Source: Luteimonas granuli (lineage in GTDB: Bacteria; Pseudomonadota; Gammaproteobacteria; Xanthomonadales; Xanthomonadaceae). Taken from it: a stretch of DNA of 64,000 nucleotides. A model generated the notes under the pieces. The model was given only the letters and a program-made list of their open reading frames with translations. It did no database searches and was not told the DNA's origin. Shown piece after piece: positions 26,644-61,747 of the stretch. Both the position numbers and the translations under genes were made by a program. The stretch spans positions 2,707,001 to 2,771,000 of the forward strand of contig NZ_CP042218.1 of the NCBI RefSeq assembly GCF_007795095.1, given 5' to 3'. Positions within the stretch are counted from its first letter, which is position 1, and each line of letters opens with the position of its first letter.

Positions 26644-26760
26644 GCCCGTCCCGCGCACAGGGGGTGTGCTCCCCCGGCCGTCTCCGCGTCCTGCTCCCAT
26701 CGGCCGGCCGCCGGCCATCCATGGCCGGCTGTCCGCACACCCCCTGTGCGCGGGACGGGC
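26644..26760 (+). repeat. stem-loop repeat element, copy R1
   Basis: Perfect 26-bp inverted repeat (26644-26669 with 26735-26760; starts GCCCGTCCCG, ends GGGGGTGTGC) enclosing a 65-nt core with further palindromes (GGCCATCCATGGCC). The whole 117 bp is repeated at 61506-61622 with one change. Confidence 0.9.
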
Positions 26761-26884
26761 TCCAACGTTCTGCGGCTTCGGGACGGAAGATCAAAAGCGG
26801 CGGAGCCGGGCAGCTCCCGGTCATGACGCCCCGTTTCAACGTCGACGTCGACGTGGCCCTCTTCCCGACCGCACGAAAGGTCGT

Positions 26885-26999
26885 GCCCGCCGCGGATGCA
26901 GGGGGGATGCCCAGAGCCGGCCATGGATGGCCGGCGGCCGGATCTGGGAGCAGGACGCGGAGAATCCGCTGGGCATCCCCCCCTGCGTCCGTGGCGGGC
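26885..26999 (-). repeat. stem-loop repeat element, copy R2, inverted orientation
   Basis: Arms 26885-26912 and 26971-26999 pair over 28 nt with two G-U wobbles and one bulge in a G run. The enclosed 58 nt is the reverse complement of the R1 core over ~45 nt (TCTCCGCGTCCTGCTCCCA, then GCCGGCCATCCATGGCCGG). Arm sequences differ from R1 but stay complementary. Confidence 0.85.
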
Positions 27000-27055
27000 G
27001 GCCAGGACTCGAACGGAGCGTCAGTGGCGGCCGGCCAGGACTCGAACGGAGCGTC
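27000..27055 (+). repeat. 33-bp tandem repeat, two units
   Basis: GGCCAGGACTCGAACGGAGC begins at 27000 and again at 27033, identical over 23 bp, with a GC-rich spacer between. Confidence 0.8.
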
Positions 27056-27061
27056 CCCCCG

Positions 27062-27067
27062 TAGAAT
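27062..27067 (+). promoter_or_regulatory. -10-like box 6 nt before a leader reading frame
   Basis: TAGAAT, then GCGCGG, then ATG 27074. It is nearly identical to the trhO start region (TAGAATGCGGCGATG at 33985). It marks a probable transcription start at the ATG. Confidence 0.45.
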
Positions 27068-27073
27068 GCGCGG

Positions 27074-27142
27074 ATGCGAAACGCAGCCCGACATTCCCTG
27101 GAGCCCCCTGCAGCCGCGACTCCCTGCGGAGCGCACGCATGA
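27074..27142 (+). CDS. possible 22-residue leader peptide
   Basis: ATG 27074 to TGA 27140-27142 encodes MRNAARHSLEPPAAATPCGA plus two more residues. The ATG sits 6 nt behind a TAGAAT box, so it would be the first codon of a leaderless mRNA. Its TGA overlaps the ATG of the downstream membrane-protein gene (ATGA), an arrangement typical of translational coupling. Conservation is unknown; this could also be just the 5' UTR of the downstream gene. Confidence 0.35.
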   Translation: MRNAARHSLEPPAAATPCGAHA

Positions 27143-27315
27143 GCTGGCTCGGCCTGGTCGCGATCATCATCGGCCTCTACCTGGCGTTCAAGGTCGCCGG
27201 CATGGTGCTGAAGCTCGCGCTGTGGCTGCTGATCGTGGTCGCCGCCTACTGGTGGCTCGCGCCGCTCTTCGGCTGGCCGGCGCTGGAGGAAGTCATCCAC
27301 GTCCTCGGTCCCTGA
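27139..27315 (+). CDS. 58-residue membrane protein
   Basis: A small protein with one long or two short hydrophobic segments (LGLVAIIIGLYLAFKVAGMV and LKLALWLLIVVAAYWWLAPL) ending in a short soluble tail. GGAG lies ~8-10 nt before the ATG. No family is certain. It is convergent with the helicase gene and may be cotranslated with the 22-codon frame that overlaps its start. Confidence 0.6.
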   Translation: MSWLGLVAIIIGLYLAFKVAGMVLKLALWLLIVVAAYWWLAPLFGWPALEEVIHVLGP

Positions 27316-27378
27316 GCGGGATCGCCGCGATGGCGGCTCCCACCCCGCCAGGGCGGCTGCAGGATCGCGGAACAGCGC

Positions 27379-29200
27379 TTATTCCGGGCGGGGACCCTTG
27401 CGGTGCGGCTTGCGTGGCGGGAAGGGCTTCTTGCCGAATCCCTTCTTCGCGAACGGTTTGCGCGCCGGCGCCTTGCCGGCGGTGTCGGGCGCTTCGCCAT
27501 CCGGGGTGATGCGCAGCTGCTGCCCCGCGCACCGCACGCCCTTGAGATGGGCCATGGTCTGCGGCGGCATGCCCTCGGGCAGGTCGATCAGGCTGTGGTC
27601 CTCGAAGATCTCGATGCGACCGATGTGCCGGGAATCGATGTTGGCCTCGTTCGCGATCGCGCCGACGATGTTGCCCGGCTTGACGCCATGGTCGTAGCCG
27701 ACCTCGACCCGGAAGGTCTGCATGCCCGGCTGCGGCGGACGCGGCACGCGCTCCTTCTTCGGGAAGGCGGGGCGGTCGCCGCGGTCGGCGTACTCGCCGC
27801 GTTCGTGGCGGCCCGGACGCTCGCGGAAGCCGCGCTCGTCGCCGAAGGGCGCGGCGGGGCGTGGCTCGCGCTTCGGCGCCTCCATCAGCAGCGGCACGTC
27901 GCCGCGGGCCATCTTCGCCAGCGCCGCGGCGATCTCCACCGCCGGCACGTTGAATTCCTGCTCGTAGTCCTCGACCAGGGACTGGAACAGCGCCAGTTCG
28001 CCGGCCGCCAGGGTGTCGGTGATCGCCTGCTTGAACTTTCCGATGCGGGCGTCGTTGACGTTCTCCACGGTCGGCAGGTCCATCTGCTCGATCGGCTGCC
28101 GGGTCGCGCGCTCGATCGCGCGCAGCAGGTTGCGTTCGCGCGGAGCGATGAACAGGATCGCCTCGCCGCTGCGCCCGGCGCGGCCGGTGCGGCCGATGCG
28201 GTGGACGTAGCTCTCGGTGTCGTAGGGCACGTCGTAGTTCAGCACGTGGCTGATGCGGTCGACGTCCAGGCCGCGCGCGGCGACGTCGGTCGCGACCAGG
28301 ATGTCGATCTTGCCGTCCTTGAGCTGGGCGATCGTGCGCTCGCGCTGGACCTGCGCGATGTCGCCGTTGATCGCGGCGGCGGCGAAGCCGCGCGCCTGCA
28401 GCTTCTCGGCCAGTTCCTCGGTCGCGATCTTGGTGCGCGTGAACACGATCATGCCATCGAAGGGTTCGGCCTCCAGGATCCGCGTCACCGCGTCAAGCTT
28501 GTTGGTGCCGCTGACCATCCAGTAGCGCTGGCGGATGTTGCGTGCGGTCGTGGTGGCGGCCTTGATCGAGACCTCCACCGGATCCTTCAGGTAGGTCTGG
28601 GCGATGCGCCGGATCGGCGGCGGCATGGTGGCCGAAAACAGCGCGACCTGGCGGGTCTCCGGGGTGCGCGCGAGCACCGCCTCGACGTCGTCGATGAAGC
28701 CCATGCGCAGCATTTCGTCGGCCTCGTCGAGCACCAGCATGCGCAGCTCGGAGAGGTCCAGCGAGCCCTTCTCGATGTGGTCGATCACACGCCCCGGGGT
28801 GCCCACGATCACCTGCACCCCGCGGCGCAGCGCCTGCAGCTGTGGGCCGTAGCCCTGGCCGCCGTAGATCGGAAGCACCTGGAAGCCGGGCATGAAGGCG
28901 GCGTACTTCTGGAAGGCCTCGGCGACCTGGATCGCCAGTTCGCGGGTGGGCGCGAGCACCAGCACCTGGGGCTTGCGCGCGGCCGGGTCGAGGCGCGCCA
29001 TCGCCGGCAGGGCGAAGGCGGCGGTCTTGCCGGTGCCGGTCTGCGCCTGGCCGAGCACGTCGCGCCCTTCCATGAGCGGCGGGATGGTGGCGGCCTGGAT
29101 CGGCGAGGGGGGATTCATAGCCGACCGCGGCCAGCGCCTGCAGCAGCGGCTGCGGCAGGCCAAGGTCGGTGAACAGCGGAGTGGGGGTGTCGGAACTCAT
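27379..29200 (-). pseudogene. DEAD-box ATP-dependent RNA helicase (CsdA/DeaD-like), single-base frameshift
   Basis: About 607 residues across two frames. The N-terminus (MSSDTPTPLFTDLGLPQPLL to GYESP) starts at 29200; after a run of six C (G on plus strand, 29107-29112) the frame changes and continues PSPIQAATIPPL. With five C the protein is intact. All motifs are present: Q motif, AQTGTGKT, PTRELA, TPGR, DEAD, SAT, ARGLD, HRIGRTGR. A DbpA-type RNA-binding domain follows (GVKPGNIVGAIANEANIDSR, IGRIEIFEDHSLIDLP), then a basic tail. It should unwind RNA in ribosome assembly or cold response. A TAGAAT -10 lies at 29241-29246 (minus). A sequence error is the most likely explanation of the shift. 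Confidence 0.82.
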
Positions 29201-29240
29201 CGGCGGCCTCTTGCGGGCCGGATGGCCTGGCGGGGTGGGG

Positions 29241-29246
29241 ATTCTA
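29241..29246 (-). promoter_or_regulatory. -10-like box of the helicase gene
   Basis: TAGAAT on the minus strand lies ~40 nt before the ATG at 29200. No -35 is obvious. Confidence 0.35.
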
Positions 29247-29269
29247 CGCGCGACGGCGCGCGTGCGCCG

Positions 29270-30115
29270 TCAGGAGGTGCGCGTGGCCAGTCGCTGGCCG
29301 AGCTTCACGGGTGTTTCCGCGCCCAGCCCCGGCGCGAGCGCGGCCACGCCCGGCGGCAGCAGCACGATCACGGTCGAGCCGTAGTTGAAGCGGGCCATCT
29401 CGTCGAAGCGCGCCAGTTCGACCGTCGAGTCCGCGTAGTCCTTGCCGGTCACGCGATCGCCGTAAGCCGGGATCTCCTCTCCGCTCCAGACCGTCTCCAC
29501 GCCCGACACGAGAAGCGCGCCCACCATCACCACCGCCATCGGGCCGAAGTCGGTTTCGAAATGGCAGACCAGGCGCTCGTTGCGCGCGAACAGCCGCGGC
29601 ACCTTGGCCACCGCGCGTGGTCCCACGCTGAACAGGCGGCCGGGCACGTGCACCGTGCGCAACAGCCGCCCGCTCCAGGGCATGTGCACCCGGTGGTAGT
29701 CGCGCGGCGAGAGATAGACCGTGGCGAACAGGCCCCCGTCGTAGGGCGCGGCGGCGGCACCTTCGCCCAGCAGTTCCGCGGCGGTGAACCAGCGTCCCTT
29801 GGCCTGGAAGATCCGCCCGTCCTCGATCGGTCCGCACTGGCTGATGCGGCCGTCGGCCGGCATCAGGATCGCGGCCGGATCGGGATCGGGCACGCGCGCG
29901 CCGGGACGCAGGGCGCGGGTGAAGAAGGCGTTGAACGTCGGGTAGGCGGCAGGGTCGGCGTCCGCCGCTTCCTCCAGGTCCACCCCGAAGCGCCGGACCA
30001 CGGTGTCGATCAGCCAGCGGCTGACGCGGGGATGGTCGGACCAGGCCAGGCGGCGTGCCATCGATGAGAGCAGCCTGTGCGGCAGCACATGGGTCAGCGC
30101 GGTGACCAGGCTCAT
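29270..30115 (-). CDS. psd: phosphatidylserine decarboxylase proenzyme
   Basis: A 281-residue inner-membrane enzyme that makes phosphatidylethanolamine from phosphatidylserine. Features include [44 protein letters not shown] (catalytic His region) and the self-cleavage site NYGST with Ser247, which becomes the pyruvoyl group; the alpha chain is the last 35 residues. Length fits the short (type I) family. Its ATG overlaps the stop of the upstream SCO gene by 4 bp. Confidence 0.93.
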
Positions 30116-30756
30116 CTCGCGGGCGCCCCGGTGAGCGCGATGAGATCGGCGGCGATCGCGGCCGGATCCAGGGGGCCCTGCACCACGCCGGCCATGCGTC
30201 CTTCGGGATCCAGTACGGCGAGCGCGGCGGAGTGGTCGATGGTGTAGGCATCCGCCGGCGCACCCTCTGGCCCCGGCGCCTTCATGAACACCAGCGACAG
30301 CGAGCGCGCGAAGTCCTCCAGCGCCGGGATGTCGGCGGTGGCCGCCAGGGTGTCACGGTGGAAGAAGGCGGCGTACTCGCCGATGCGGTCCGGGCTGTCG
30401 CGCTCGGGGTCCACCGAGACGAACAGCACCCGCGGCCGCTGCGCCTCGGGCAGCGGTTCCCATTCCTTCTGCGCGCGGGAGAGGTCGGCCAGCGTGGTCG
30501 GGCAGACATCGGGGCAGTGGGTGAAGCCCAGGAAGACCAGGGTCCAGTGGCCGTGCAGCTCGCCCGGCACCAGCTGGGTGCCGTCGGACTGTTGCAGGGC
30601 GAAGGGCGGCAGCTCGCGCGGCTGCGGGAACAGGCGCACCGCGGCGAGTTCCGGGGCGGGCGCGCTCTCGCGGCCGAACCACTGCTGCGACGCCACCAGG
30701 CCGAGGCCTGCGGCGAGGGCGACCACGAGCACGATCAGGACGCTACGGTTGAACAT
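30112..30756 (-). CDS. SCO family protein (copper chaperone/redox protein)
   Basis: A 214-residue membrane-anchored thioredoxin-fold protein. TM helix ~5-24 ([17 protein letters not shown]), copper site [12 protein letters not shown] (Cys81, Cys85) and His175 in [12 protein letters not shown]/SenC proteins deliver copper to the CuA centre of cytochrome c oxidase or act as disulfide reductases in the periplasm. Start 30756 has GAGG ~5 nt upstream. It is the first gene of a two-gene unit with psd. Confidence 0.9.
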
Positions 30757-30864
30757 GTGGCCTCGGCGGAACGGCAAGGCCGGCCATGATAGCGGCTGCG
30801 CGCAGGCCCGGCAGCGGCTCGCCTATACTGCGGAACCCGGCGAAAAGGGCCGCGAACGCGCGCC

Positions 30865-31852
30865 ATGACCACGCACCAGCTCCTGACCATCATCGACCTG
30901 ATCCGCTATGGCGCCAGCCGGTTCAACGCGGCGGGCCTGACCTTCGGCCACAGCTACGACAACGCCCTGGACGAGGCGACCCAGCTCACCCTCCACGCCC
31001 TGCACCTGCCGCACGACCTGAGTCCGGTCTACGGCCAGGCCCGGGTGACCGAGGCCGAAAAGGAAGAGGTGCTGGGCCTGTTCATCCGCCGCATCGAGGA
31101 GCGGATCCCGGCCGCCTATCTCTGCGGCGAGGCCTGGTTCGCGGGGCTGAGCTTCAAGAGCGACCGCCGAGCCCTGGTGCCGCGCTCGCCGATCGCCGAA
31201 CTGATCGAGTCCGGCTTCTGAACCCTGGCTGGCCGGGCGCGAGGTGCGCCGGGCGCTCGACCTCTGCACCGGCTCGGGCTGCATCGCCATCGCCATGGCG
31301 CACTACAACCCGGACTGGCACGTCGATGGCGTCGACCTGAGCCCCGAGGCGCTGTCGCTGGCGAAGGAGAACGAGCGCAGGCTGGGGGTACGCAACGTCC
31401 GCTTCCTCGAGTCCGACCTGTTCTCCTCGCTGCAGGGCGAACACTACGACCTGATCGTCAGCAACCCGCCCTACGTCACCAATGCCGAGACCGACGCGCT
31501 CCCGCGGGAGTATTCGTACGAGCCCGAGATGGGCCTGCGCGCCGGCAACGACGGCCTGGACCTGGTGCTGAGGATCCTGCGCGACGCTCCGCTGCATCTG
31601 TCCGAGGACGGCCTGCTGGTCTGCGAGGTCGGCGAGGCCGAGCGCGCGCTGTCGGCCCTGCTGCCGGAACTGCCGCTGATGTGGGTGGAGTTCAAGGTCG
31701 GGCAGATGGGCGTGTTCGTGGCCGAACGCCACGACCTGGTGACGCACAACCGGCGCATCGCCGCGCTGGCGGCGGAGCGCCAGGGCGGCGTGGCCGCCGG
31801 CGCCGCGGCTCCGGCTCCCGCCCCGGCCAGCGGGCCGGACGGCCTGTTCTGA
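30865..31852 (+). pseudogene. prmB: 50S ribosomal protein L3 glutamine methyltransferase PrmB, frameshifted
   Basis: First part 30865-31221 (MTTHQLLTIIDLIRYGASRF to ELIESGF, then TGA); second part continues without a gap from GAA at 31222 (EPWLAGREVRRALDLCTGSGCIAIA). Removing one T at 31219-31221 restores a ~328-residue enzyme. The methyltransferase fold shows DLCTGSGCIAIA and the catalytic NPPY (VSNPPYVTNAE). PrmB methylates a Gln of ribosomal protein L3. The tail ([19 protein letters not shown]) is low complexity. TATACT at 30824-30829 may be the -10. The clean join argues for a sequence error; a programmed +1 shift at TTC-TGA is the alternative. Confidence 0.82.
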
Positions 31853-31895
31853 TGGGCGCGCCCGCGGGCCGGTCGCGGCGCCACGGGGCGCGGCC

Positions 31896-33005
31896 ATGAA
31901 CACCTTCGGGCAGCTGCTGCGGGTCACGACCTTCGGCGAGTCGCACGGACCGGCCATCGGCTGCGTGGTCGACGGCTGCCCCCCGGGCATCCCCCTGGCT
32001 CCGGAGGACTTCGCGCGCGACCTCGAGCGCCGCGCCACCGGGCGCACGCGCCACACCTCGGCGCGGCGCGAGGAGGACGCGATCGAGATCCTCTCCGGCG
32101 TGTATGAGGGCCTCACCACCGGCACCCCGATCGCGCTGCTCGTCCGCAACACCGACGCGCGCAGCCGCGACTACGCCGCGATCGCCGGGCAGTTCCGTCC
32201 GGGCCACGCCGACTACGCCTACTGGCAGAAATACGGCATCCGCGACCCGCGCGGCGGCGGCCGCAGTTCCGCGCGCGAGACCACCATGCGGGTCGCCGCG
32301 GGGGTGATCGCGAAGAAGTGGCTGGCCGACCGTCACGGCGTGCGGGTGCGCGGCCACCTGGCGCAGATCGGCGACATCATGCCGCGAAGCCACGACTGGG
32401 ATGCGGTCGAAGGCAATCCGTTCTTCTGGCCCGACGCGGCCCAGGTGCCGGAGCTGGAGGCGTACATGGACGCACTGCGCAAGTCCGGTGATTCGGTGGG
32501 CGCACGCGTCGCCGTGGTCGCCGACGGCGTGCCGCCCGGATGGGGCGAGCCGGTCTACGGCAAGCTCGACGCCGGCATCGCCGCGGCGATGATGTCGATC
32601 AACGCGGTCAAGGGCGTGGAGATCGGGGACGGTTTCGCCAGCGTCGCGCAGAGGGGCAGCGCCCACCGCGATCCGATGACGCCCGCGGGCTTCCTGTCCA
32701 ACCATGCAGGCGGTGTGCTCGGCGGCATCAGCAGCGGCCAGCAGGTCGTCTGTTCGGTGGCGTTCAAGCCGACCTCGAGCCTGCGCCTGCCGGTGGCAGG
32801 CCTGGACGTCGACGGGCAGGTCGTGGACATCGTCACCACCGGCCGCCACGACCCCTGCGTCGGCATCCGCGCGACGCCGATCTGCGAGGCCATGCTGGCG
32901 CTGGAGCTGATGGACCAGGCGCTTCGCCACCGCGCCCAGTGCGGCGACGTCGGCGAGGTCGCGCCGCGCATCCCGGCGTCGGCCGGCGGCCGGGATGATG
33001 GCTGA
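31896..33005 (+). CDS. aroC: chorismate synthase
   Basis: A 369-residue enzyme of normal length that converts EPSP to chorismate, the last shared step of aromatic biosynthesis, using reduced FMN. Signatures: [65 protein letters not shown], and [25 protein letters not shown]. The end overlaps the next gene's start by 11 bp. It feeds the trp genes found 6 kb downstream. Confidence 0.96.
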
Positions 33006-33987
33006 GCCGCGTCCCCGGGTCTGGGTGTCGCAGCCGCTGTACGCGGACCTCGAGGCGCGGCTGGACGAATGGTTCGAGGTCGCGCGCACGCCGCGGGTCA
33101 CCGACCACGCGCCCGGGGCGATCGCCGCAGCGCTCGCCGATGCCGATGGTGCCCTGGTCACGCTCAACGACCGGATCGGCGAAACCGAGGTGGCCGGCGC
33201 GTCGCGGCTGCGCGCGGTGGCCAACGTCGGCGTCGGCTACGACAACCTCGATGTCGCGGCGCTGGCGGCGCGCGGCATCGTCGCCACCAACACGCCCGGC
33301 GTGCTCACCGAAACCACCGCCGACTTCGGCTTCGCGCTGATGATGGCCGCGGCGCGCCGCATCACCGAGGCCGAACACTGGCTGCGCGACGGGCGCTGGC
33401 AGGGCTGGGGCTTCCATGAGCTGCTCGGCGCCGAGATCCACGGCAGCACGCTGGGCATCCTCGGCATGGGCCGGATCGGCCAGGGCATCGCCCGGCGCGC
33501 GCGCGGCTTCGGCATGCGCGTGCTGTACCACAACCGCCACCGGCTGCCCGAGGCCGTGGAGGAGGCCTGCGCCGCGACGTGGACCACGCGCGCGGCGCTG
33601 CTGGCAGACTCCGACCACCTCGTGCTGGTGCTGCCGTACACCGCGGACAACCACCACATCATCGACGCCGGGGCGCTGGCCGCGATGAAGCCGACGGCCA
33701 CGCTGACCAATATCGCCCGCGGCGGCCTGGTCGACGAGGGCGCGCTGGCCGAGGCCTTGCAGTCCGGCCGCCTGGCCGCCGCCGGGCTCGACGTGTTCGA
33801 GGGCGAGCCGGCGGTGGATCCGCGGCTGCTCGCGTGCCGCAACGTGGTGCTGACGCCACACGTCGCGAGCGCCAGCCTGCCCACGCGCCGCGCGATGGTG
33901 GCGCTGGCGGTGGACAACCTGGTCGCGGCGATGGGATTCGGCCCCGATGCCGGACATCCGCCGAGCCCGGTGACGCGCATTCCGTAG
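32995..33987 (+). CDS. D-2-hydroxyacid dehydrogenase (glyoxylate/hydroxypyruvate reductase-like)
   Basis: A 330-residue NAD(P)-dependent D-isomer-specific dehydrogenase. NAD fold GMGRIGQG (157-164); catalytic Arg242 (NIARGG), Glu271 (DVFEGEP) and His289 (TPHVASA) are all present. The N-terminal half has [10 protein letters not shown], as in glyoxylate reductases such as GhrB. It probably reduces glyoxylate or hydroxypyruvate in the cytoplasm; the exact substrate is inferred. It overlaps aroC by 11 bp and likely shares its transcript. Confidence 0.88.
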
Positions 33988-33990
33988 AAT
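33985..33990 (+). promoter_or_regulatory. -10-like box 6 nt before trhO
   Basis: TAGAAT-GCGGCG-ATG with no SD; candidate leaderless promoter. It sits at the stop codon of the dehydrogenase gene. Confidence 0.45.
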
Positions 33991-33996
33991 GCGGCG

Positions 33997-34739
33997 ATGT
34001 ACACCAGCATCGCCGCCTACCACTTCGTTGCCATCGACGACCCGGCCGCGCTCGCGGCACGCCTGCGTGTCCTCGCGGAGGAGCGCGCGCTGCTCGGCAC
34101 CGTCCTGGTCGCGGGCGAGGGCATCAACCTGTTCCTCGCGGGCGATGGTGGCGATATCGATGCCTTCCTCGCCCGCCTGCGGGGGACGCGCGCTTCGCGA
34201 CCCTGCATGCGAAGGTCAGCCACAGCCGCACCCGGCCGTTCGCGCGCCTGAAGGTCAAGGTCAAGCCGGAGATCATCAGCTTCCGGCGCGAAGGCACGTC
34301 GCCCCTGGGCGGGCGGGCGCCCGCGGTGCCCCCGGAGGACCTCGCGCGCTGGATCGCGAAGGGCCATGACGATGACGGACGGCGCCTGGTCCTGCTCGAT
34401 ACCCGCAACCGCGAGGAGATCGGCCACGGCAGCTTCGCCGGCGCGCTGACCCTGCCGATCGATAACTTCACCGACCTGCCGGCGGCGCTGGAGCCGCACC
34501 GGGACGCCCTGGCCGACGCCACCGTGGTTGGCTTCTGCACCGGCGGCATCCGCTGCGAGAAGGCGGTGACCTGGATGCGCGCGGAAGGCTATGCCGGCGC
34601 AGTGCAGCTCGAAGGCGGGATCTTGGGCTATTTCGAAGCCGTGGGCGGTTTCGGCTATGAGGGGCGCTGCTTCGTCTTCGACGAGCGGGTGGCCCTGGAT
34701 CCGGACCTGCGCGCCGCGGCCGACCTCGACGCGCGATAA
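33997..34739 (+). pseudogene. trhO: tRNA uridine(34) hydroxylase TrhO (rhodanese family), frameshifted
   Basis: About 247 residues in two frames. The first (MYTSIAAYHFVAIDDPAALAAR to FLARLRG) runs to ~34180; the second continues RFATLHAKVSHSRTRPFARLKVKVK. One missing G in the run at 34176-34181 explains the break: six G would read LRGDARFATLHAK. The rhodanese domain has LLDTRNREEIGHGSF and the active-site loop CTGGIRCEKA. TrhO/YceA hydroxylates U34 of certain tRNAs. The rest of the gene is intact, so a sequence error in the homopolymer is likely. It appears leaderless, with TAGAAT 6 nt before the ATG. Confidence 0.82.
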
Positions 34740-34785
34740 TGGCGTGCTGCGCGGCACCGTCGCGCGACCAGTCAACGGAGTTCCG

Positions 34786-35802: not shown

Positions 35803-35840
35803 TGCGCGGCCTCGCGTTGCCATGCATGGCCCGGGACCGC

Positions 35841-35846
35841 TAGAGT
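35841..35846 (+). promoter_or_regulatory. -10-like box 7 nt before the fimV ATG
   Basis: TAGAGT, then 7 nt, then ATG 35854. It suggests leaderless transcription from that ATG, though a GTG at 35872 with GGGGGAA upstream is an alternative start. Confidence 0.3.
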
Positions 35847-35853
35847 CCACGCG

Positions 35854-37779: not shown

Positions 37780-37830
37780 GGCCGGTTCCGCGCCGCGGCG
37801 GTCCGCGGTGCGGCCGGTTCCGTGGACGCC

Positions 37831-38664: not shown

Positions 38665-38665
38665 C

Positions 38666-39352: not shown

Positions 39353-40559
<1,207 letters not shown>

Positions 40560-49350: not shown

Positions 49351-49874
49351 AAGCGACCGGCAACTTCGAGAACGCGCGCAACGTCGACCCGCTGGAAGTG
49401 CTCAGCGACGACACCCGCGCGCACATCGACCACTGGGTGGCCAAGTTCCCGCCCGACCGCAAGCGCTCGGCCGTCATCCAGGGCCTGTTCGCGACCCAGC
49501 AGCAGAACGGCGGCTACCTGACCGACGAGCTGATCGCGGCGGTGGCGAAGTACCTCGGCATTCCGCCGGTCTGGGCCTACGAGGTCGCGACCTTCTACTC
49601 GATGTTCGAGACGCGGGAGGTCGGCCGCAACAACGTCGCCTTCTGCACCAACATCAGCTGCTGGCTCAACGGCGCCGAGGAACTGGTCGCGCACGCCGAG
49701 AAGAAGCTCGGCTGCAAGCTGGGCGAGACCACCGCCGACGGCCGCGTCTACCTCAAGCGCGAGGAAGAGTGCGTGGCCGCGTGCTGCGGCGCCCCGGTGG
49801 TCGTGATCAACGGCCATTACCACGAGAAGCTCGACGCGGCGAAGGTCGACGAGCTGCTCGACGGACTGAAGTGA
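49347..49874 (+). CDS. nuoE: NADH-quinone oxidoreductase subunit E
   Basis: A 175-residue thioredoxin-like subunit with the [2Fe-2S] cluster N1a: [11 protein letters not shown] and [12 protein letters not shown] supply the Cys ligands. [13 protein letters not shown] is a family motif. ATGA overlap with nuoD. Part of the NADH-input module with NuoF and NuoG. Confidence 0.95.
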
Positions 49875-49888
49875 GGCTGGACGCAGGC

Positions 49889-53478: not shown

Positions 53479-54584
53479 GCACGACCACGACCAACACTTC
53501 CACCGTGCTGCTCGGCTGGCTCGAGCCGGTCCGCTCGTGGCTCGAGTCGCTCGGACCGATGGGCACCGTCGTCTGGCTGGTGCTGCTGATCCTGGCGATC
53601 ATGATGCCGGTGATCACCACCGTGGCGTTCTACGTGGTCTGGGAGCGCAAGCTGATCGGCTGGATGCACATCCGCCACGGGCCGATGTACGTCGGTTTCG
53701 GCGTGCTGCAGGCCTTCGCCGACGTCTTCAAGCTGCTGTTCAAGGAAGTCATCCGGCCCAGCAGTGCGCACAAGGTGCTCTACATCCTGGCCCCGATGAT
53801 CACCATGGTGCCGGCGCTGGCCGCCTGGGCCGTTGTGCCCTTCGACACAGGGATGGTGCTGTCCAACGCCAACGTCGGCCTGCTGTACCTGCTGGCGATG
53901 ACCTCGATGGGCGTGTACGGCGTGATCATCGCCGGCTGGGCCTCGAACTCGAAGTACGCCTTCCTCGGCGCCATGCGCTCGGCGGCGCAGGTCGTCAGCT
54001 ACGAGATCGCGATGGGCTTCGCCCTGGTCGGGGTCATGGTCGCCGCGGGCAGCCTCAACCTGACCGAGATCGTGATGGCGCAGTCCGGCAACGGAGGCTT
54101 CCTGGAATGGTTCTGGGTGCCGTTGCTGCCGCTGTTCGTCGTCTACTTCGTATCCGGCGTGGCCGAGGTCAACCGGGCGCCGTTCGACGTGGTCGAGGGC
54201 GAGAGCGAGATCGTGGCCGGCCACATGGTCGAGTACTCGGGCTCCGTGTTCGCGCTGTTCTTCCTGGCCGAGTACGCGAACATGATCCTGGTGAGCTTCC
54301 TCACCGCGATCTTCTTCCTCGGCGGCTGGCTGTCGCCGGTCCCGGCGGCGTGGATCCCGGATGTCCCGGTGCTTTCGGTCGTGCTCGGTGACGGCTGGTG
54401 GTGGCTGTTCGCCAAGGTGTTCTTCTTCGCCAGCTGCTTCATCTGGTTCCGCGCGACCTTCCCGCGCTACCGCTACGACCAGATCATGCGCCTGGGCTGG
54501 AAGGTGTTCATTCCGCTGTCCATCGCCTGGATCGCGGTGACGGCGCTGATGGCGTACTTCGGCGTGTTCGAGGCAGGTGCGTGA
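53475..54584 (+). CDS. nuoH: NADH-quinone oxidoreductase subunit H
   Basis: A 369-residue, eight-TM subunit near the quinone entry. [35 protein letters not shown] (charged quinone-channel loop) and [21 protein letters not shown] are typical. Overlaps nuoG (ATGA) and nuoI (TGATG). Confidence 0.95.
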
Positions 54585-55072
54585 TGGACAAGTTCGTATC
54601 CCGGGCCCGGAGCCTGCTGCTGGTCGAGATGATCCAGGGCATGGCGCTGACCTTCAAATACCTGTGGCGCCCCAAGTACACGATGATGTACCCGATGGAG
54701 AAGATCCCGCAGTCTCCGCGGTTCCGCGGGCTGCACGCGCTGCGCCGCTACCCGAACGGCGAGGAGCGCTGCATCGCCTGCAAGCTGTGCGAGGCCGTGT
54801 GCCCGGCGCTGGCGATCACGATCGACTCCGAGCAGCGCGAGGACAACACGCGCCGCACGACGCGCTATGAGATCGACCTGTTCAAGTGCATCTTCTGCGG
54901 CTTCTGCGAGGAGTCGTGCCCGGTGGACTCGATCGTCGAGACCCACATCCACGAGTACCACTTCGAGAACCGCGGCGAGAACATCGTCACCAAGCCGCAG
55001 TTGCTTGCGATCGGCGACCGCCTGGAGGCGGAGATCGCCGAGCGCCGCGCCGCCGACGCCGCATACAGGTAA
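54584..55072 (+). CDS. nuoI: NADH-quinone oxidoreductase subunit I
   Basis: A 162-residue peripheral subunit with two [4Fe-4S] clusters: [12 protein letters not shown] and [12 protein letters not shown]. It passes electrons from NuoG to NuoB. The start shares the A of the nuoH TGA. Confidence 0.96.
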
Positions 55073-55075
55073 GCC

Positions 55076-55726
55076 ATGGACTTCGTACAGTTCGCATTCT
55101 TCGCATTCGCCGCGCTCGCGGTCGGCTCCGCCGGCGCCGTGATCAGCGCGCGCAGCCCGGTCCACTCGGCGCTGTTCCTTGTGCTGACGTTCTTCAGCGT
55201 CGCCTGCACCTGGATCATCGCCGGCGCCGAATTCCTGGGCGTCGCCCTGGTGATCGTCTACGTGGGCGCGGTGATGGTGCTGTTCCTGTTCGTGGTGATG
55301 ATGCTCGACATCGACCTGGTGTCGATCAACGAAGGCTTCGTGAGCCACCTGCCGATCGGACTCGTGGTGGCGGTGGTGATGCTGCTCGAGCTGCTGGCGC
55401 TGATCGGAGTCATGGCCTTCGTCCAGACACCACTGTCGCCCATCGTGCCCGAGGCCGAGGTATCGAATACCGCCTGGATCGCGCGCCGCCTGTTCACGGA
55501 CTTCCTGCTGCCGTTCGAGGTCGCCGCGGTGATCCTGACGGTGGCGGTGGTGGCCGCGGTCACGCTGACGCTGCGCCGCCGCCCGGGCACCAAGCACCAG
55601 ATCGTGGGCGAGCAGGTGCGCACGCGCCCCGGCGACCGCCTGCGCATGCTCGACATGCCGGTATCGGTCCACGTCGCCGACGACCCGCCGGCGCCCGCCG
55701 CCCCCGTCGACGGGGAGGAGAAGTAA
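55076..55726 (+). CDS. nuoJ: NADH-quinone oxidoreductase subunit J
   Basis: A 216-residue membrane subunit with five TM helices ([37 protein letters not shown] with the pi-bulge helix TM3). The C-terminal ~45 residues are a polar tail. Overlaps nuoK by one base (TAATG). Confidence 0.94.
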
Positions 55727-56049
55727 TGGAGTTCCTCGGACAGGGCCTTGCGCTCGGCCACTACCTGACGCTTGCCACCGTGCTGTTCTGCATCAGCGTG
55801 GCCGGCATCTTCCTGAACCGGAAGAACGTCATCATCCTGCTGATGTGCATCGAGCTGATGCTGCTCTCGGTGAACATCAACTTCGTCGCCTTCTCGCGCG
55901 AGTTCGGCGACGCGGCGGGGCAGGTCTTCGTGTTCTTCATCCTCACCGTGGCCGCGGCCGAGGCCGCGATCGGCCTGGCGATCCTGGTCACGCTGTTCCG
56001 CAACCGGCGCACCATCAACGTCGCCGAACTCGACACGCTGAAGGGCTGA
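55726..56049 (+). CDS. nuoK: NADH-quinone oxidoreductase subunit K
   Basis: A 107-residue, three-TM subunit. The conserved Glu residues for proton transfer lie in [18 protein letters not shown] and [17 protein letters not shown]. Slightly longer N-terminus than E. coli. GGAGGAG precedes the ATG. Confidence 0.95.
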
Positions 56050-56053
56050 CGGA

Positions 56054-58168
56054 ATGCCTGGCATGGATATCGTGATTTCCAAGACCGTACTGCTGGCGAT
56101 CGTGCTGGCGCCGCTGTTCGGCGCCATCGTCGCCGGCCTGTTCGGCCGCCAGGTCGGCCGCGTGGGCGCGCAATCGGTGACCATCCTCGGCGTCGCGGCG
56201 AGCTGCGCGCTGTCGTGCTACGTGCTGTGGCAGCTGATCCAGGGCGCGGCGCCCTTCAACGAGAACGTCTACACCTGGTTCTCGGTGGCGGGCTTCGAGG
56301 CGCACGCCGGCTTCATGGTCGACAGGCTGACCGCGATGATGATGGTGGTGGTGACCTTCGTCTCGCTGCTGGTCCACGTCTACACGATCGGCTACATGGC
56401 GGACGATCCGGGCTACCAGCGCTTCTTCAGCTACATCAGCCTGTTCACCTTCTCCATGCTGGCGCTGGTGATGGCCAACAACTTCCTGCAGCTGTTCTTC
56501 GGTTGGGAAGCGGTGGGCCTGGTGTCGTACCTGCTGATCGGTTTCTGGTTCAAGCGCCCGACCGCGGTGTTCGCCAACCTGAAGGCTTTCCTGGTCAACC
56601 GCGTCGGCGACTTCGGCATGTTGCTGGGAATCGCCGGCGTGGCGTACTGGTTCGGGACCCTGGACTACGCCACGGTGTTCGCCAATGCCGGCCCGGTCCT
56701 CGGCGGCGGGCAGGTCATCGAGATCTTCGAGGGCCATGCCTGGTCGGTCGCGACCCTGATCTGCATCCTGCTGTTCATCGGTGCCATGGGCAAGTCGGCG
56801 CAGGTGCCGCTGCACGTGTGGCTCCCGGACTCGATGGAGGGCCCGACCCCGATCTCGGCGCTGATCCACGCCGCGACCATGGTCACCGCCGGCATCTTCA
56901 TGGTGGCGCGCATGTCGCCGCTGTTCGAGCTCAGCGAAGTGGCGCTGCAGTTCATCCTCTTCATCGGCGCCACCACGGCCTTCTTCACCGGCCTGATCGG
57001 CATCGTCCAGAACGACATCAAGCGCGTGGTGGCGTACTCCACGCTGTCGCAGCTCGGCTACATGACCGTGGCGCTGGGCGTGTCCGCGTACTCGGCGGCC
57101 GTGTTCCACCTGATGACCCACGCGTTCTTCAAGGCCCTGCTGTTCCTGGGCGCGGGCTCGGTGATCATCGCCATGCACCACGAGCAGGACATGCGCCGCA
57201 TGGGCGGCCTGCGCAGGTACATGCCGATCACCTTCTGGACCATGGTGATCGGCACCCTGGCCCTGGTGGCGACGCCGTTCTTCAGCGGCTTCTATTCCAA
57301 GGACACCATCATCGAGGCGGCGAAGTACGGCGCCGAGGGGATGGGCTGGGTCGGCACGTACGGCTACTGGGCGGTCCTGCTGGGTGCGTTCGTGACCTCG
57401 TTCTACAGCTTCCGCCTGCTGTACCTGACCTTCTTCGGCCGGGAACGCTTCCGCGACGCGGCACCCGCGCACGAGGATGCGCACGGCAAGCACGATCACG
57501 AAACCCATCACGAGCCCTCGAGCCTCGACGCCTACGGCCATGACGACCATGGCGTGCACGAGCCGCGCGAGTCGCCCTGGGTGGTGACCCTGCCCCTGGT
57601 GCTGCTGGCGATCCCCTCGATCGCGATCGGCTTCTTCACCGCCGGCCCGATGCTGTTCGGCACCGACTGGAGCGGCAGGGAGCAGGTGCTGCCGTTCTTC
57701 CTCGGCGCCATCGAGGTGCTCCCGCAGCACGACACCCTGGCGCGCATCGCGTCCGAACTCTGGCACGGTCCGGTGGCGTTCGCGCTGCATGGCTTCCTCA
57801 CGCCCGCGTTCTGGCTGACGCTCGCCGGCTTCGTGCTCGCGACGGTCATGTACTGGTGGCGTCCGGAGCTGGCGGCGAAGGCCCGGCGTGCATTCGCGCT
57901 GCCGGTCAAGGTGCTCGAGAACAAGTACTGGGCGGACGACTTCTGGATCGGTGGCCTGGCCGGCGGCAGCCTGCAGCTGGGCAAGGCCTCCGACCTCGTC
58001 GACCGCCGTGCGATCGACGGCGTGGCGGTGAACGGCACCGCCGGTTTCATCGGTCTCGCGTCGCGCGTCCTGCGCCGCCTGCAGTCGGGGCGCCTGTACG
58101 ACTATGCATTCACGATGATCGTCGGCCTGATCGTGCTCCTGGCCGTGCTCATCCACCACTGGACCTGA
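56054..58168 (+). CDS. nuoL: NADH-quinone oxidoreductase subunit L
   Basis: A 704-residue proton-pumping antiporter-like subunit with the long lateral helix at its C-terminus. FFGWEAVGLVSYLLIGFWF (key Glu), VPLHVWLPDSMEGPTPISALIHAATMV (Lys/His) and TTAFFTGLIGIVQNDIKRVVAYSTLSQLGYM are diagnostic. A His/Asp/Glu-rich cytosolic or periplasmic loop (~475-505, HEDAHGKHDHETHHEP) is unusual. ATG 56054 used; ATG 56063 possible. Confidence 0.95.
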   Translation: MPGMDIVISKTVLLAIVLAPLFGAIVAGLFGRQVGRVGAQSVTILGVAASCALSCYVLWQLIQGAAPFNENVYTWFSVAGFEAHAGFMVDRLTAMMMVVVTFVSLLVHVYTIGYMADDPGYQRFFSYISLFTFSMLALVMANNFLQLFFGWEAVGLVSYLLIGFWFKRPTAVFANLKAFLVNRVGDFGMLLGIAGVAYWFGTLDYATVFANAGPVLGGGQVIEIFEGHAWSVATLICILLFIGAMGKSAQVPLHVWLPDSMEGPTPISALIHAATMVTAGIFMVARMSPLFELSEVALQFILFIGATTAFFTGLIGIVQNDIKRVVAYSTLSQLGYMTVALGVSAYSAAVFHLMTHAFFKALLFLGAGSVIIAMHHEQDMRRMGGLRRYMPITFWTMVIGTLALVATPFFSGFYSKDTIIEAAKYGAEGMGWVGTYGYWAVLLGAFVTSFYSFRLLYLTFFGRERFRDAAPAHEDAHGKHDHETHHEPSSLDAYGHDDHGVHEPRESPWVVTLPLVLLAIPSIAIGFFTAGPMLFGTDWSGREQVLPFFLGAIEVLPQHDTLARIASELWHGPVAFALHGFLTPAFWLTLAGFVLATVMYWWRPELAAKARRAFALPVKVLENKYWADDFWIGGLAGGSLQLGKASDLVDRRAIDGVAVNGTAGFIGLASRVLRRLQSGRLYDYAFTMIVGLIVLLAVLIHHWT

Positions 58169-58181
58169 CGGAAGACGATAC

Positions 58182-59696
58182 GTGTCGAACTGGCCTCTCC
58201 TCAGCCTCCTCATCTGGCTGCCGATCATCGGCGGTGCGGGGGTGCTCGCGCTCGGCAACCGCGCCGGCGCCGCCCGCTGGCTGTCGCTGGCGATCGCCCT
58301 CGTGGTGCTCGCCATCAGCATCCCCCTGTTCACCGGCTACGACGCCTCGGCGGCCGCGGCCACGATGCAGTTCGTCGAGGCCCGGGAGTGGATCCCGGCC
58401 TATGACATCCAGTACCACCTGGGCGCGGACGGCATCTCGGTCGCGCTGATCGTGCTGACCACCCTGGTCACGGTGCTGGTGCTGATCGGGGCCTGGACCT
58501 CGATCGACAAGCGCGTCAGCCAGTACTACGCCTCGATGCTGATCCTCGAGGGCCTGATGATCGGCGTGTTCTCGGCCGTGGACGCGATGCTGTTCTACGT
58601 GTTCTTCGAGGGCATGCTGATCCCGATGTTCATCATCATCGGCGTCTGGGGCGGGCCGCGTCGCGTGTACGCGTCGGTGAAGTTCTTCCTGTACACCTTC
58701 CTCGGCTCGGTCTTCATGCTGGTCGGCCTGGTGTACCTCTACCTGAAGTCGGGCAGCTGGCAGCTGCCCGACCTGTACGCGCTGCCGCTGACCGCGACCG
58801 AGCAGATGTGGCTGTTCTTCGCCTTCCTGATCGCGTTCGCGGTCAAGGTGCCGATGTTCCCGGTGCACACCTGGCTCCCGGACGCGCACGTCGAGGCGCC
58901 CACCGGCGGTTCGGTGATCCTGGCGGCGATCATGCTGAAGATCGGCGGCTACGGCTTCCTGCGCTTCAGCCTGCCGATCACGCCCGACGCCGGCCACGAG
59001 TGGGCCTGGCTGCTGATCGCGCTGTCGCTGGTGGCGGTGGTCTACGTCGGCCTGGTGGCGCTGGTCCAGCAGGACATGAAGAAGCTGATCGCGTACTCCT
59101 CGGTCTCGCACATGGGCTTCGTGACCCTGGGCATCTTCATCGCCTTCGCGCTGGTGCGTGACACCGGCAACCCCGAGGCCGCGCGCCTGGGCATGCAGGG
59201 CGCGATGGTGCAGATGGTTTCCCACGGCTTCGTATCGGGCGCCATGTTCTCCTGCGTCGGAGTGCTGTACGACCGCATGCACACGCGCATGATCCGGGAC
59301 TACGGCGGCGTGGCGAACGTGATGCCGGTGTTCGCGGCGTTCTACGTGCTGTTCGCGTTCGCCAACTCCGGCCTGCCGGGCACCTCCGGCTTCGTGGGTG
59401 AGTTCATGGTCATCGTGGCCTCGTTCCAGCATCATCCGCTGATCGCCTTCGTGGCCGCCATCACCCTGATCCTGGGCGCCGGCTACACGCTGTGGCTGGT
59501 CAAGCGCGTGATGTACGGCGAGGTCGGCAACGCGCACGTCGCGGAGATGAAGGACATCAACGGCCGCGAGGCCCTCGTGCTTGGCGTGTTCGCCGCGGGC
59601 GTTCTGCTCATCGGCTTCTACCCCAGGCCCCTGACCGACCTGATGGAACCGTCCATCGCGCAGCTGGCGGGCATGCTCGCCAACAGCAAGCTTTGA
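58182..59696 (+). CDS. nuoM: NADH-quinone oxidoreductase subunit M
   Basis: A 504-residue proton-pumping antiporter-like subunit. FFEGMLIPMFIIIGVWGG (key Glu), FPVHTWLPDAHVEAPTGGSVILA and LIAYSSVSHMGFVTLGIF are family motifs. Starts at GTG 58182, 14 bp after nuoL. Confidence 0.95.
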   Translation: MSNWPLLSLLIWLPIIGGAGVLALGNRAGAARWLSLAIALVVLAISIPLFTGYDASAAAATMQFVEAREWIPAYDIQYHLGADGISVALIVLTTLVTVLVLIGAWTSIDKRVSQYYASMLILEGLMIGVFSAVDAMLFYVFFEGMLIPMFIIIGVWGGPRRVYASVKFFLYTFLGSVFMLVGLVYLYLKSGSWQLPDLYALPLTATEQMWLFFAFLIAFAVKVPMFPVHTWLPDAHVEAPTGGSVILAAIMLKIGGYGFLRFSLPITPDAGHEWAWLLIALSLVAVVYVGLVALVQQDMKKLIAYSSVSHMGFVTLGIFIAFALVRDTGNPEAARLGMQGAMVQMVSHGFVSGAMFSCVGVLYDRMHTRMIRDYGGVANVMPVFAAFYVLFAFANSGLPGTSGFVGEFMVIVASFQHHPLIAFVAAITLILGAGYTLWLVKRVMYGEVGNAHVAEMKDINGREALVLGVFAAGVLLIGFYPRPLTDLMEPSIAQLAGMLANSKL

Positions 59697-59709
59697 GGAA
59701 TGTGACGCG

Positions 59710-61173
59710 ATGATGCCTGGAGCGATGACCCCTCCCGTCCGGACGCTGGCCGACATCGCGCCGCTGGCGCCCGAGCTCGTGGTCGTGATCGGCGCGTTCG
59801 CGCTGCTGATGCTGGACCTGTTCATCGGCGAGCGCCGCCGGGTCGTGACCCACGGCCTGGCCGTGGCCGTGCTGCTGGCCGCCGCCGCCATGATCGTCGC
59901 CGGCGTGGGCGGGCACGGCATGGTGCTGGCCGACATGTTCGTGCGCGACACCGTCGCCGATGTGCTGAAGGTGATCATCCTGGTGATCACCGCGGCCTCG
60001 CTGGGCTATGCCTGGCCGTTCATGCAGGAGCGCGGCCTGTACAAGGGCGAGCTGCCGGTCCTGGTGCTGTTCGCGACGCTGGGCATGATGCTGCTGGTCT
60101 CGGCGCCCAACCTGACCACGGTCTACGTCGGCCTGGAACTGCTTGCGCTGTGCCAGTACGCACTGGTCGCGATCGACCGCGACAATCCGGTCGCTTCCGA
60201 AGCGGCGATGAAGTATTTCGTGCTCGGCTCGCTGGCATCCGGCCTGCTGCTGTTCGGCATGTCGCTGGTCTACGGCGCCACCGGCAGCCTGGACCTGTCC
60301 GCGATCAGCAGCGCCGCGGCCACCGTCGAAGGCGGGACCCGCACCCTGCTGCTGACCGGGACGGTGTTCCTCGTGGTCGGCATCTGCTTCAAGTTCGGCG
60401 CTGCGCCTTTCCACATGTGGCTGCCCGACGCCTACCACGGCGCACCGACCCCAATGACCCTGTTCATCGGTTCGGCGCCCAAGCTCGCGGTGTTCGGCAT
60501 GGCCTACAGGCTGCTCGAGTCGGGTGTCGGCCCGCTGCAGGACCAGTGGCAGCTGATGCTGGCCCTGATCGCCGCGCTGTCGCTGGTGGTCGGCAACGTG
60601 TTCGCGATCGCCCAGACCAACCTCAAGCGCATGCTGGCGTACTCGACCGTCTCGCACGTCGGCTTCCTGCTGCTCGGCCTTGCCGGCGGCGGCGCCGAAG
60701 GCTACGCCGCGGCGATGTTCTACGCGATCAGCTACGCGGTCATGGCCGCCGCGGGCTTCGGTGCCATCGTGCTGCTGTCGCGGCGCGGCTTCGAGGCCGA
60801 CCGCATCGATGATTTCAAGGGCCTCAACGCCCGAAGCCCGTGGATGGCGGCGATGGTCCTGGTGATCATGGCCTCGCTCGCCGGCGTGCCGCCCTTCCTC
60901 GGCTTCTGGGCCAAGCTCGTGGTGCTGCGCGCGGCGATCGGCGGCGACATGCTGTGGCTGGCGATCGTGGGCATCGTGTTCGCGGTGGTGGGCGCGTTCT
61001 ACTACCTGCGCGTGATCAAGGTGATGTACTTCGACGAGCCTGCCGGCGAGGCCATCGAGGTCCGCGACAACGGCCCGTTGAAGGTGCTGTTCTCCGCCAA
61101 CGCGCTGGCCCTGCTGGTGCTGGGCATCGCATGGAATCCGATCATGGCCCTGTGCCAGGCGGCGTTCGCCTGA
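59710..61173 (+). CDS. nuoN: NADH-quinone oxidoreductase subunit N
   Basis: A 487-residue proton-pumping antiporter-like subunit. GLELLALCQYALVAIDRDN (key Glu), AAPFHMWLPDAYHGAPTPMTLFIGSAPKLA and MLAYSTVSHVGFLLLGLAGG identify it. GAGGAA lies ~10 nt upstream of ATG 59710. Last gene of the operon; the tRNA-fMet follows 83 bp later with its own promoter. Confidence 0.95.
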   Translation: MMPGAMTPPVRTLADIAPLAPELVVVIGAFALLMLDLFIGERRRVVTHGLAVAVLLAAAAMIVAGVGGHGMVLADMFVRDTVADVLKVIILVITAASLGYAWPFMQERGLYKGELPVLVLFATLGMMLLVSAPNLTTVYVGLELLALCQYALVAIDRDNPVASEAAMKYFVLGSLASGLLLFGMSLVYGATGSLDLSAISSAAATVEGGTRTLLLTGTVFLVVGICFKFGAAPFHMWLPDAYHGAPTPMTLFIGSAPKLAVFGMAYRLLESGVGPLQDQWQLMLALIAALSLVVGNVFAIAQTNLKRMLAYSTVSHVGFLLLGLAGGGAEGYAAAMFYAISYAVMAAAGFGAIVLLSRRGFEADRIDDFKGLNARSPWMAAMVLVIMASLAGVPPFLGFWAKLVVLRAAIGGDMLWLAIVGIVFAVVGAFYYLRVIKVMYFDEPAGEAIEVRDNGPLKVLFSANALALLVLGIAWNPIMALCQAAFA

Positions 61174-61215
61174 TCGCGCGCTGAGCGTCCGCAGGCGCGC
61201 GACGCGATCGCGGGC

Positions 61216-61244
61216 TTGCAAGACATCCGGCATTCCGTCATAAT
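61216..61244 (+). promoter_or_regulatory. promoter of tRNA-fMet
   Basis: TTGCAA (61216-61221), 17 nt, CATAAT (61239-61244), 11 nt before the tRNA. The discriminator is GC-rich (GTCGGCC), typical of stringently controlled stable-RNA promoters. Confidence 0.75.
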
Positions 61245-61255
61245 TGTCGGCCTGC

Positions 61256-61332
61256 TGCGGGGTGGAGCAGTCTGGCAGCTCGTCGGGCTCATAACCCGAA
61301 GGTCGCAGGTTCAAATCCTGCCCCCGCTACCA
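61256..61332 (+). tRNA. initiator tRNA-fMet (CAT)
   Basis: A 77-nt tRNA with encoded CCA. The anticodon stem TCGGG/CCCGA around CTCATAA has the three G-C pairs of initiators. Acceptor positions 2-7 (GCGGGG) pair with CCCCGC; position 1 is T and position 72 is T, so the end is a U-U mismatch instead of the usual C-A. T-arm GCAGG-TTCAAAT-CCTGC. Confidence 0.96.
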
Positions 61333-61347
61333 GTTTTGCAGCAGTCC

Positions 61348-61384
61348 GAACGGCGCGCCTGATACCAGGCGCGCCGTTCTTTTT
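61348..61384 (+). terminator. intrinsic terminator after tRNA-fMet
   Basis: A perfect 14-bp stem (61348-61361 with 61366-61379, starting GAACGGCGCG) with loop ATAC, followed by TTTTT. Strong Rho-independent terminator. Confidence 0.92.
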
Positions 61385-61747
61385 GGTTCCTCGTCAGGCT
61401 CCGGGACGCGGGCGTGCAGTCGCCGCGTTGTTGCACCCGGGAGCGGCTCCGTTGTGGTCTGGCGCCAGTCCCGCGCTCAGGAGCGGCTCCCTTCTGGTCC
61501 GCGCAGCCCGTCCCGCGCACAGGGGGTGTGCTCCCCCGGCCGTCTCCGCGTCCTGCTCCCATCGGCCGGCCGCCGGCCATCCATGGCCGGCTGTCCGCAC
61601 ACCCCCTGTACGCGGGACGGGCTCCAACGTTCTGCGGCTTCGGGACGGAAGATCAAGAGCGGTCGCGAGCAGGGCGGCGCGCACTCACATCCGATCCGCC
61701 TGCGTCCGCGGCGGACTCCAGGGGAACGTCTCCCCGATAACGTGCCC
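61385..61747. repeat. intergenic region with second copy of the repeat mosaic, no gene
   Basis: From ~61408 this 340-bp region repeats the layout of 26.44-26.80 kb in the same orientation: the GGCGTGCAGT segment (61409), two diverged 42-bp units (61431-61505), stem-loop R3 (61506-61622) and the tail to 61662. The rest (61663-61747) is partly similar to the end of the 26-kb mosaic but lacks R2. Confidence 0.85.
61506..61622 (+). repeat. stem-loop repeat element, copy R3
   Basis: The arms 61506-61531 and 61597-61622 pair over 26 nt with one mismatch (C-A on plus, G-U on minus). The 65-nt core is identical to R1. The next 40 bp after the element also match R1's flank with one change. Confidence 0.9.

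Follow-up and report, generated by a model that had tools for sequence, protein, structure and literature searches.

The repeat in the window and its copies

The 64,000-nt stretch of Luteimonas granuli DNA analysed here (the window; positions 2707001–2771000 of the 2,917,404-base single contig of this genome, designated G000) contains three copies, R1, R2 and R3, of a dispersed repeat, the features of which are listed by window coordinate in Table 1. An earlier, sequence-only reading had described three stem-loop elements with a conserved core and complementary arms, and these are real: the 19-nt core has three exact copies in the window, where 0.02 would be expected by chance with up to three mismatches. 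R1 and R3, which that reading had called near-identical, are one base apart, and R2 lies in the opposite orientation to R1 with different arm sequences. R3 follows the terminator of a tRNA-Met gene. We propose, with a probability of roughly 0.55, that the repeat is a family of RNA structures that bind RsmA/CsrA, carried by a transposon and situated at the 3' ends of genes, in which R1 and R2 would be the two inverted halves of a unit carried as cargo by a miniature inverted-repeat transposable element (MITE) with ISL3-type ends.

The core had been taken as a single unit; it is indeed conserved, and resolves into two hairpins, H1 (loop TCTCCGCGTCCTGCTCCCA) and H2 (GCCGGCCATCCATGGCCGGC), held within an outer stem that in R1 comprises 26 perfect base pairs. 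The RNA folds of R1 and R2, computed for both strands, lie 6.9 to 11.6 standard deviations below dinucleotide shuffles. We refer to the strand with TCTCCGCG as the loop-sense strand and to its complement as the purine strand; the latter, which displays the CsrA-type loops, is the minus strand for R1 and the plus strand for R2. As RNA, the purine strand of each half would fold into a T shape in which a long stem carries two hairpins, both with loops of CsrA/RsmA type.

Table 1. Features of R1, R2 and R3 in window coordinates
Feature	Position	Strand	Remarks
R1 half, T-shaped structure	26644..26760	-	Covariance model match 26641-26761 minus, 119.9 bits; fold -97.3 kcal/mol
R2 half, inverted relative to R1	26885..26999	+	Model match 26884-27002 plus, 106.0 bits; fold -93.7 kcal/mol
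R3, lone R1-type half behind tRNA-Met, R2 partner missing	61506..61622	-	Model match 61503-61623 minus, 120.8 bits
H1 loop of R1	26681..26699	-	Minus strand contains GCAGGACGC, GGA in small loop
H2 of R1	26713..26726	-	Minus-strand loop is CCAUGGAUGG, fits CANGGANG
R1/R2 spacer	26761..26884	.	Among copies, far more variable than H1 and H2
Decayed left terminal repeat of MITE	26419..26439	+	2 mismatches to GGTTCTTCTCCNNACTCNGGG; genome 2733419-2733439
Left tandem units	26517..26643	+	About 42 nt each, about 22 nt in common with outer R1 arm; edges approximate
Right tandem units	27000..27061	+	Right MITE end not recognisable at R1/R2; edges approximate
tRNA-Met upstream of R3	61256-61332
Decayed left MITE end of R3 (locus L139)	61381..61401	+	At terminator T-tract behind tRNA-Met; edges approximate

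A further H2-like palindrome, GGGCCATCCATGGCCC, occurs at 26291–26389 (core 26348–26361) and is perhaps a decayed half beside R1; its match to the covariance model is weak (15.6 bits, E = 0.24). Long open frames cross the repeat in several frames between 26220 and 27136, where automatic annotation could call false proteins.

The possibility raised earlier that only these three copies exist does not hold. Searching the whole 2.9-Mb genome with the core and up to three mismatches gave 93 matches (53 forward, 40 reverse) compared with three (one and two) for the reversed control, and 88 core copies within two mismatches were recovered in 51 stretches fetched around the matches. R1-type and R2-type halves are often paired in inverted orientation with a core-to-core spacing of about 262 nt; exceptions include single halves (R3), fused halves (L098 and L136; L numbers denote loci and G numbers genomes) and a triple copy (L110). 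At L098 and L136 the halves are fused at their cores, as the collapse of an inverted pair would give. For a single element site in G214 (L188), and likewise for one in G240 (L196), the flanks match two different element sites of G000 that are about 10 kb apart (L112 and L113, at about 1243.9 and 1254.2 kb); either a segment lies between two copies in G000 or it was deleted in G214 and G240.

The repeat extends to relatives. By nuoN, the host falls within or beside Luteimonas, and its best named match is L. arsenica 26-35 (91% over 487 residues). Of 130 halves, 59 served to build a covariance model; every fourth G000 copy was taken, and three rearranged loci and one hybrid half were left out. 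With this model, a search of the kind proposed in the sequence-only reading matched 27 of the 52 genomes of the genus Luteimonas at E ≤ 0.001. Eight of them are strong carriers (best E below 1e-20, 18 to at least 69 matches each) and 19 are weaker (best E 4e-7 to 2e-12); a second search of nine of the latter yielded 107 matches (E ≤ 1e-5). At the DNA level, one full element used as query matched 29 of the 52 genomes, the host included, and clear homology (E below 1e-40) was seen in seven besides the host. Among 30 divergent loci taken for inspection, 15 have two separate halves, with identical outward polarity in all 15. The homologous unit in the divergent species measures about 310–335 nt and has no evident ISL3 ends; homology stops near CTTCGGA...TCCGAAG, and ISL3-like ends with one mismatch occur only near L258 and L238 among the 30 loci, a count made without a control. 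Further afield, of 80 nuoN loci scanned across the family two matched the model, both from Pseudoxanthomonas-type metagenome-assembled genomes (L335 and L334); in L335 a pair of halves (83.6 and 69.6 bits) lies close to an ISL3-like end. An exact-core search of 198 family genomes, a sample outside which seven close species lie, returned more than two matches only in G000 and single matches in seven others.

Fold, strand polarity and hairpin loops

The alignment of clade 1, the host clade (57 distinct sequences from eight species), bears out the claim that the arm changes are compensatory: 97.5% of pairs are standard, compared with 88.1% after shuffling, a level reached in none of 500 shuffles. 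The covariation score is 0.267 (0.106 shuffled), both partners vary in 17 of 40 pairs, and none of five measures was attained by any of the 500 shuffles. For the divergent matches (n = 49), both partners vary in 36 of 40 pairs and the score is 0.620 against 0.157, in an alignment that was fitted to the model and leans to its structure. Within the G000 copies, transitions are far fewer in H1 and H2 than in the spacer of the same copies.

The mismatches that do occur are distributed unevenly between the strands. The non-Watson–Crick pairs, two of which had previously been noted as G-U in R2, are G·U on the strand opposite to that carrying TCTCCGCG. Across the 128 clade-1 halves assigned to a type (two untyped halves and one misplaced row were dropped), the outer arms show 135 A·C, eight G·T and 20 other mismatches on the loop-sense strand, A·C on this strand being G·U on the purine strand. 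Counted as distinct species–site–pair states with the inner stems included, the ratio is 51 to 8 (p = 9e-9), and counted as bare sites it is 22 to 8. The divergent halves (n = 45 after four antisense overlaps were dropped) have 52 G·U, five A·C and 11 other mismatches on the purine strand. The purine strand of every half reads outward from the spacer; since R1 and R2 are opposite within the element, a chromosomal strand bias should cancel. Mutational bias was considered as the source of the excess and rejected, the bias in the spacer being only 1.3 to 1.9 fold. The G·U excess suggests that selection acts on a single strand, folded and always of the same polarity. Of the earlier alternatives, a folded RNA or cruciform DNA under selection, constraint on a folded strand stands; RNA is favoured, though not proved, by the preference for G·U over A·C and by the loops of CsrA type, with folded single-stranded DNA as an alternative.

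Published consensus forms of the CsrA/RsmA site include (A/U)CANGGANG(U/A) and RUACARGGAUGU (PMC6692469). The H2 loops fit CANGGANG in 129 of 130 clade-1 halves and in 44 of 45 divergent halves, and in the sole divergent miss the motif is visible outside the search range of the script. On the purine strand, the clade-1 H2 loop reads CAUGGAUG in 122 halves, CAGGGAUG in four, and CAAGGAUG, CACGGAUG, CAUGGAAG and CGUGGAUG in one each. H1 fits CANGGANG or CAGGANG in 40 of the 45 divergent halves (CAUGGAUG 27, CAGGAUG seven, CAGGGAUG three, CAGGAAG two and CCAGGAUG one); among the five misses, two have unreadable letters, two have one changed base in GGA and one is truncated. In clade 1, H1 has GC[A/U]GGACGC in a larger loop (CAGGACG in this genome), a sequence which we take to resemble the CsrB repeat. 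A GGA presented in a hairpin loop that fits CANGGANG, the mark of a CsrA/RsmA-binding RNA, is found in these halves, and the loop sequences are those of the published site, judged by their letters, varying at its free positions. This conservation spans genera. Pairing between R1 and R2 loops was rejected as its cause, as the R1 and R2 loops differ within G240. The host genome has a csrA gene (E = 1.9e-25).

The carrier and its insertion sites

Side-by-side reading of copies revealed a larger element that starts with GGTTCTTCTCC and ends with GGAGAAGAACC. Allowing two substitutions at each end, both ends are intact in 23 elements of 349–871 bp (19 from G000, four from congeners) among 71 fetched stretches (51 from G000 and 20 from seven congeners). 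Their flanking octamers agree at a mean of 5.39 of eight positions, compared with 2.66 after shuffling (maximum 4.35 in 5000 shuffles); the 8-bp target duplication is complete in two elements, agrees at six or more positions in ten and at none in L135. The duplications are A/T-rich, an A/T run of at least five abuts 20 of the 23 elements, and a terminator-like hairpin adjoins many of them (a count made without a control). At L106 (about 1000.2–1000.6 kb in G000) a MITE directly adjoins the end of a second MITE of the same type.

The MITE shares its terminal inverted repeats with autonomous ISL3 elements. The left end of L111 matches that of the insertion sequence at L206 over 42 nt at 90.5% identity (E = 5e-12), and the right end matches L208 more weakly (23 nt at 87%). 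Full ISL3 copies in L206, L208, L209 and L212 have ends of the same kind as the MITE; at L206 the 8-bp duplication is exact, and a 407-residue open reading frame (ORF) of that copy stops 3 nt inside the left end. Transposase family PF01610 (ISL3) exceeds the cut-off in 18 of the 52 genomes of the genus. Searches of G000 for PF01610 and for Y1 transposases gave no match, in agreement with the earlier remark that no RAYT (REP-associated tyrosine transposase) or other transposase is at hand. The carrier in this clade is thus recognisable by its ends as a defective transposon of the ISL3 type, and it may be mobilised in trans by full ISL3 copies such as those of some congeners. An element of 106 bp (L153) has the MITE ends without the halves. 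The interval from a solitary terminal repeat at 1307117 to a half at 1310306 of the genome was considered as an autonomous copy, and the idea was dropped because the ORFs there look like ordinary host genes. Six short ISL3 C-terminal matches of 28–29 positions in G225 (L220 and five other places) suggest a further ISL3-derived MITE, whose ends resemble GGTTCTTCGCGGATCAGCGGGG.

No empty site was found in the relatives compared, in which the neighbourhood behind nuoN is rearranged; the flank comparison gave shared occupied sites instead. Sites are common by both flanks for L135/L190, L136/L189, L110/L200 and L135/L201 and by one flank for L128/L199. Because some of the elements are oppositely oriented (L201 relative to L135, and L245 of G228 relative to L251 of G220), re-insertion at hot spots, inversion and inheritance are not separable. 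Judged by both flanks, L245 and L251 occupy one site, and the opposite orientation of the element there would represent in-place inversion or independent insertion.

Gene positions were taken from a home-made gene caller, which resolved 50 sites and left one unresolved, with 55 gene pairs of the window as background. The sites comprise 25 convergent, 21 tandem and four divergent arrangements, compared with nine, 38 and eight among the window pairs, and 46 of the 50 lie downstream of at least one gene. Most copies would be downstream of genes because the MITE sits at the A/T tracts of intrinsic terminators.

RsmA/CsrA binding and competing explanations

The closest known RNA is TwoAYGGAY (Rfam RF01731; clan CL00106, with RsmW and rsmX), which likewise has an outer stem around two hairpins, each with an AYGGAY loop, and which has been proposed as a CsrA binder (PMC4333381). 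Most divergent halves have two AYGGAY-loop hairpins in a long stem, and clade 1 has this loop in H2 only. Compared with seven divergent loci, TwoAYGGAY aligns end to end (model positions 1–168) in three and partially in a fourth. The present repeat differs in forming inverted pairs, in numbering dozens per genome, in its much higher G+C content, in being carried by a MITE in one clade and in the other H1 loop of the host clade. GGA hairpins are also the hallmark of RsmA/CsrA-sequestering RNAs such as those of CsrB type and RsmU of Xanthomonas, the latter likewise reported as a 3'-untranslated-region (3'UTR)-derived RsmA-binding RNA (PMC7694677); those are single-locus RNAs, whereas here a dispersed repeat has predicted binding. 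No report on this repeat was found among titles and abstract openings, a scope outside which most subscription journals lie. As a carrier, the element resembles an ISL3-family MITE in its terminal repeats GGTTCTTCTCC, in about 42 nt of the insertion-sequence left end and in its A/T-rich 8-bp duplications, and departs from a plain one in that the structured cargo is conserved beyond the MITE, this genome has no transposase gene and the ends are mostly unrecognisable in divergent species.

We favour a CsrA-binding RNA because of the TwoAYGGAY layout, the csrA gene, the sites at gene 3' ends and the precedent of RsmU. Copy number, ISL3 ends, target preference, position at gene 3' ends, covariation, strand asymmetry, loop conservation and csrA are read directly from the genomes, and from them we infer transcription, CsrA binding and a physiological effect. 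The two hairpins of a half would suit both RNA-binding faces of one CsrA dimer, and the inverted order of the halves means that a read-through transcript entering from either direction would include one T-structure. The RNAs would arise as read-through 3' ends or as processed 3'UTR RNAs and, on binding RsmA/CsrA, would either titrate the protein or mark the host transcript.

Several observations weigh against this. The purine strands of the two halves are opposite, so that no single transcript shows all four hairpins, and no promoter was identified. The clade-1 H1 loop is larger and has no A two bases before GGA, and R1/R2 of the window lie between divergent genes, one of four such exceptions. 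TwoAYGGAY scored 33.1 to 37.7 bits in four of the seven divergent loci, below its gathering threshold of 43 bits; it was not reported for the window or for the Pseudoxanthomonas pair (L335), and 17 further loci gave no match to its clan at gathering level. An Rfam scan of window positions 26000–27500 returned two chance-level matches only. The divergent set was chosen with the help of a model that scores G·U above A·C, and its orientation may slightly favour G·U. Finally, RsmU with all four GGA motifs changed is reported to have still bound RsmA (PMC7694677), so that GGA alone is not a sure guide to RsmA binding.

The strongest competitor, which we consider unlikely, holds that the halves act as single-stranded DNA: once folded, they would be targets of a transposition or replication factor, as REPINs (paired repetitive extragenic palindromes, REPs) are of Y1 transposases, with the loops as protein contacts and G·T tolerated over A·C as the more stable DNA mismatch. 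The high copy number would suit it, as would the uniform outward polarity of the inverted pairs in 15 of 15 two-half divergent loci and the divergent unit of about 310–335 nt without evident ISL3 ends. The repeat does share with REPs, REPINs and bacterial interspersed mosaic elements (BIMEs) its palindromes in inverted pairs, high copy number and location mostly at gene 3' ends, and the earlier comparison of R1 and R2 with a BIME-type pair is apt for the inverted arrangement; the carrier, however, is a MITE with ISL3 ends and target duplications. Y1 (RAYT-type) transposases have no match in G000, G200 and G214, three of the eight strong carriers, and one to three matches in the other five; a RAYT-driven REP is not favoured for this reason, GTAG-type REPs having been outside the search. 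Folded DNA is further disfavoured by loop variation that tracks the free positions of the CsrA site and by the 106-bp element, which has the MITE ends and lacks the halves.

Less probable still is a functionless MITE with palindromes, its arms kept complementary by template switching and its copies homogenised by recombination. Palindrome turnover in the fused halves (L098, L136), the triple copy (L110) and species-specific variants at shared sites are what such a process would produce, but template switching gives perfect arms rather than G·U over A·C at 135 to 8 or 52 to 5, and it does not account for the much lower variation in H1 and H2 than in the accompanying spacer or for loops kept across genera. 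Least probable is that the pair serves as a 3'-end element working in both directions, stopping read-through or shielding mRNA ends whether or not CsrA is involved. The very stable folds and the convergent-gene sites (25 of 50, against nine of 55 window gene pairs) lend this some weight, but the copies read have no U-tract after the halves, a host terminator-like hairpin is often already beside the insertion, and the fixed GGA loops and two-hairpin layout are left unexplained.

In its fullest form, which we put forward tentatively and hold somewhat doubtful, the RNA-binding explanation would describe a transposon-built RsmA/CsrA sponge, in which an ISL3 MITE planted dozens of two-hairpin CsrA-binding units at gene 3' ends. 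Their inverted pairing would let transcription from either direction expose one unit, and a selfish repeat would thereby have become a genome-wide post-transcriptional network in Luteimonas and its relatives. RsmU, reported in 2020, was presented as the founding member of a new RsmA-sequestering family confined to Xanthomonas (PMC7694677), and the present repeat would bear on RsmA antagonism in other Lysobacteraceae. If correct, a mobile repeat of this kind, spreading predicted CsrA sites to the 3' ends of genes, would be a new means for transposons to influence post-transcriptional control, and it would account for the persistence, in a high-copy bacterial palindrome, of a covarying fold with a single polarity.

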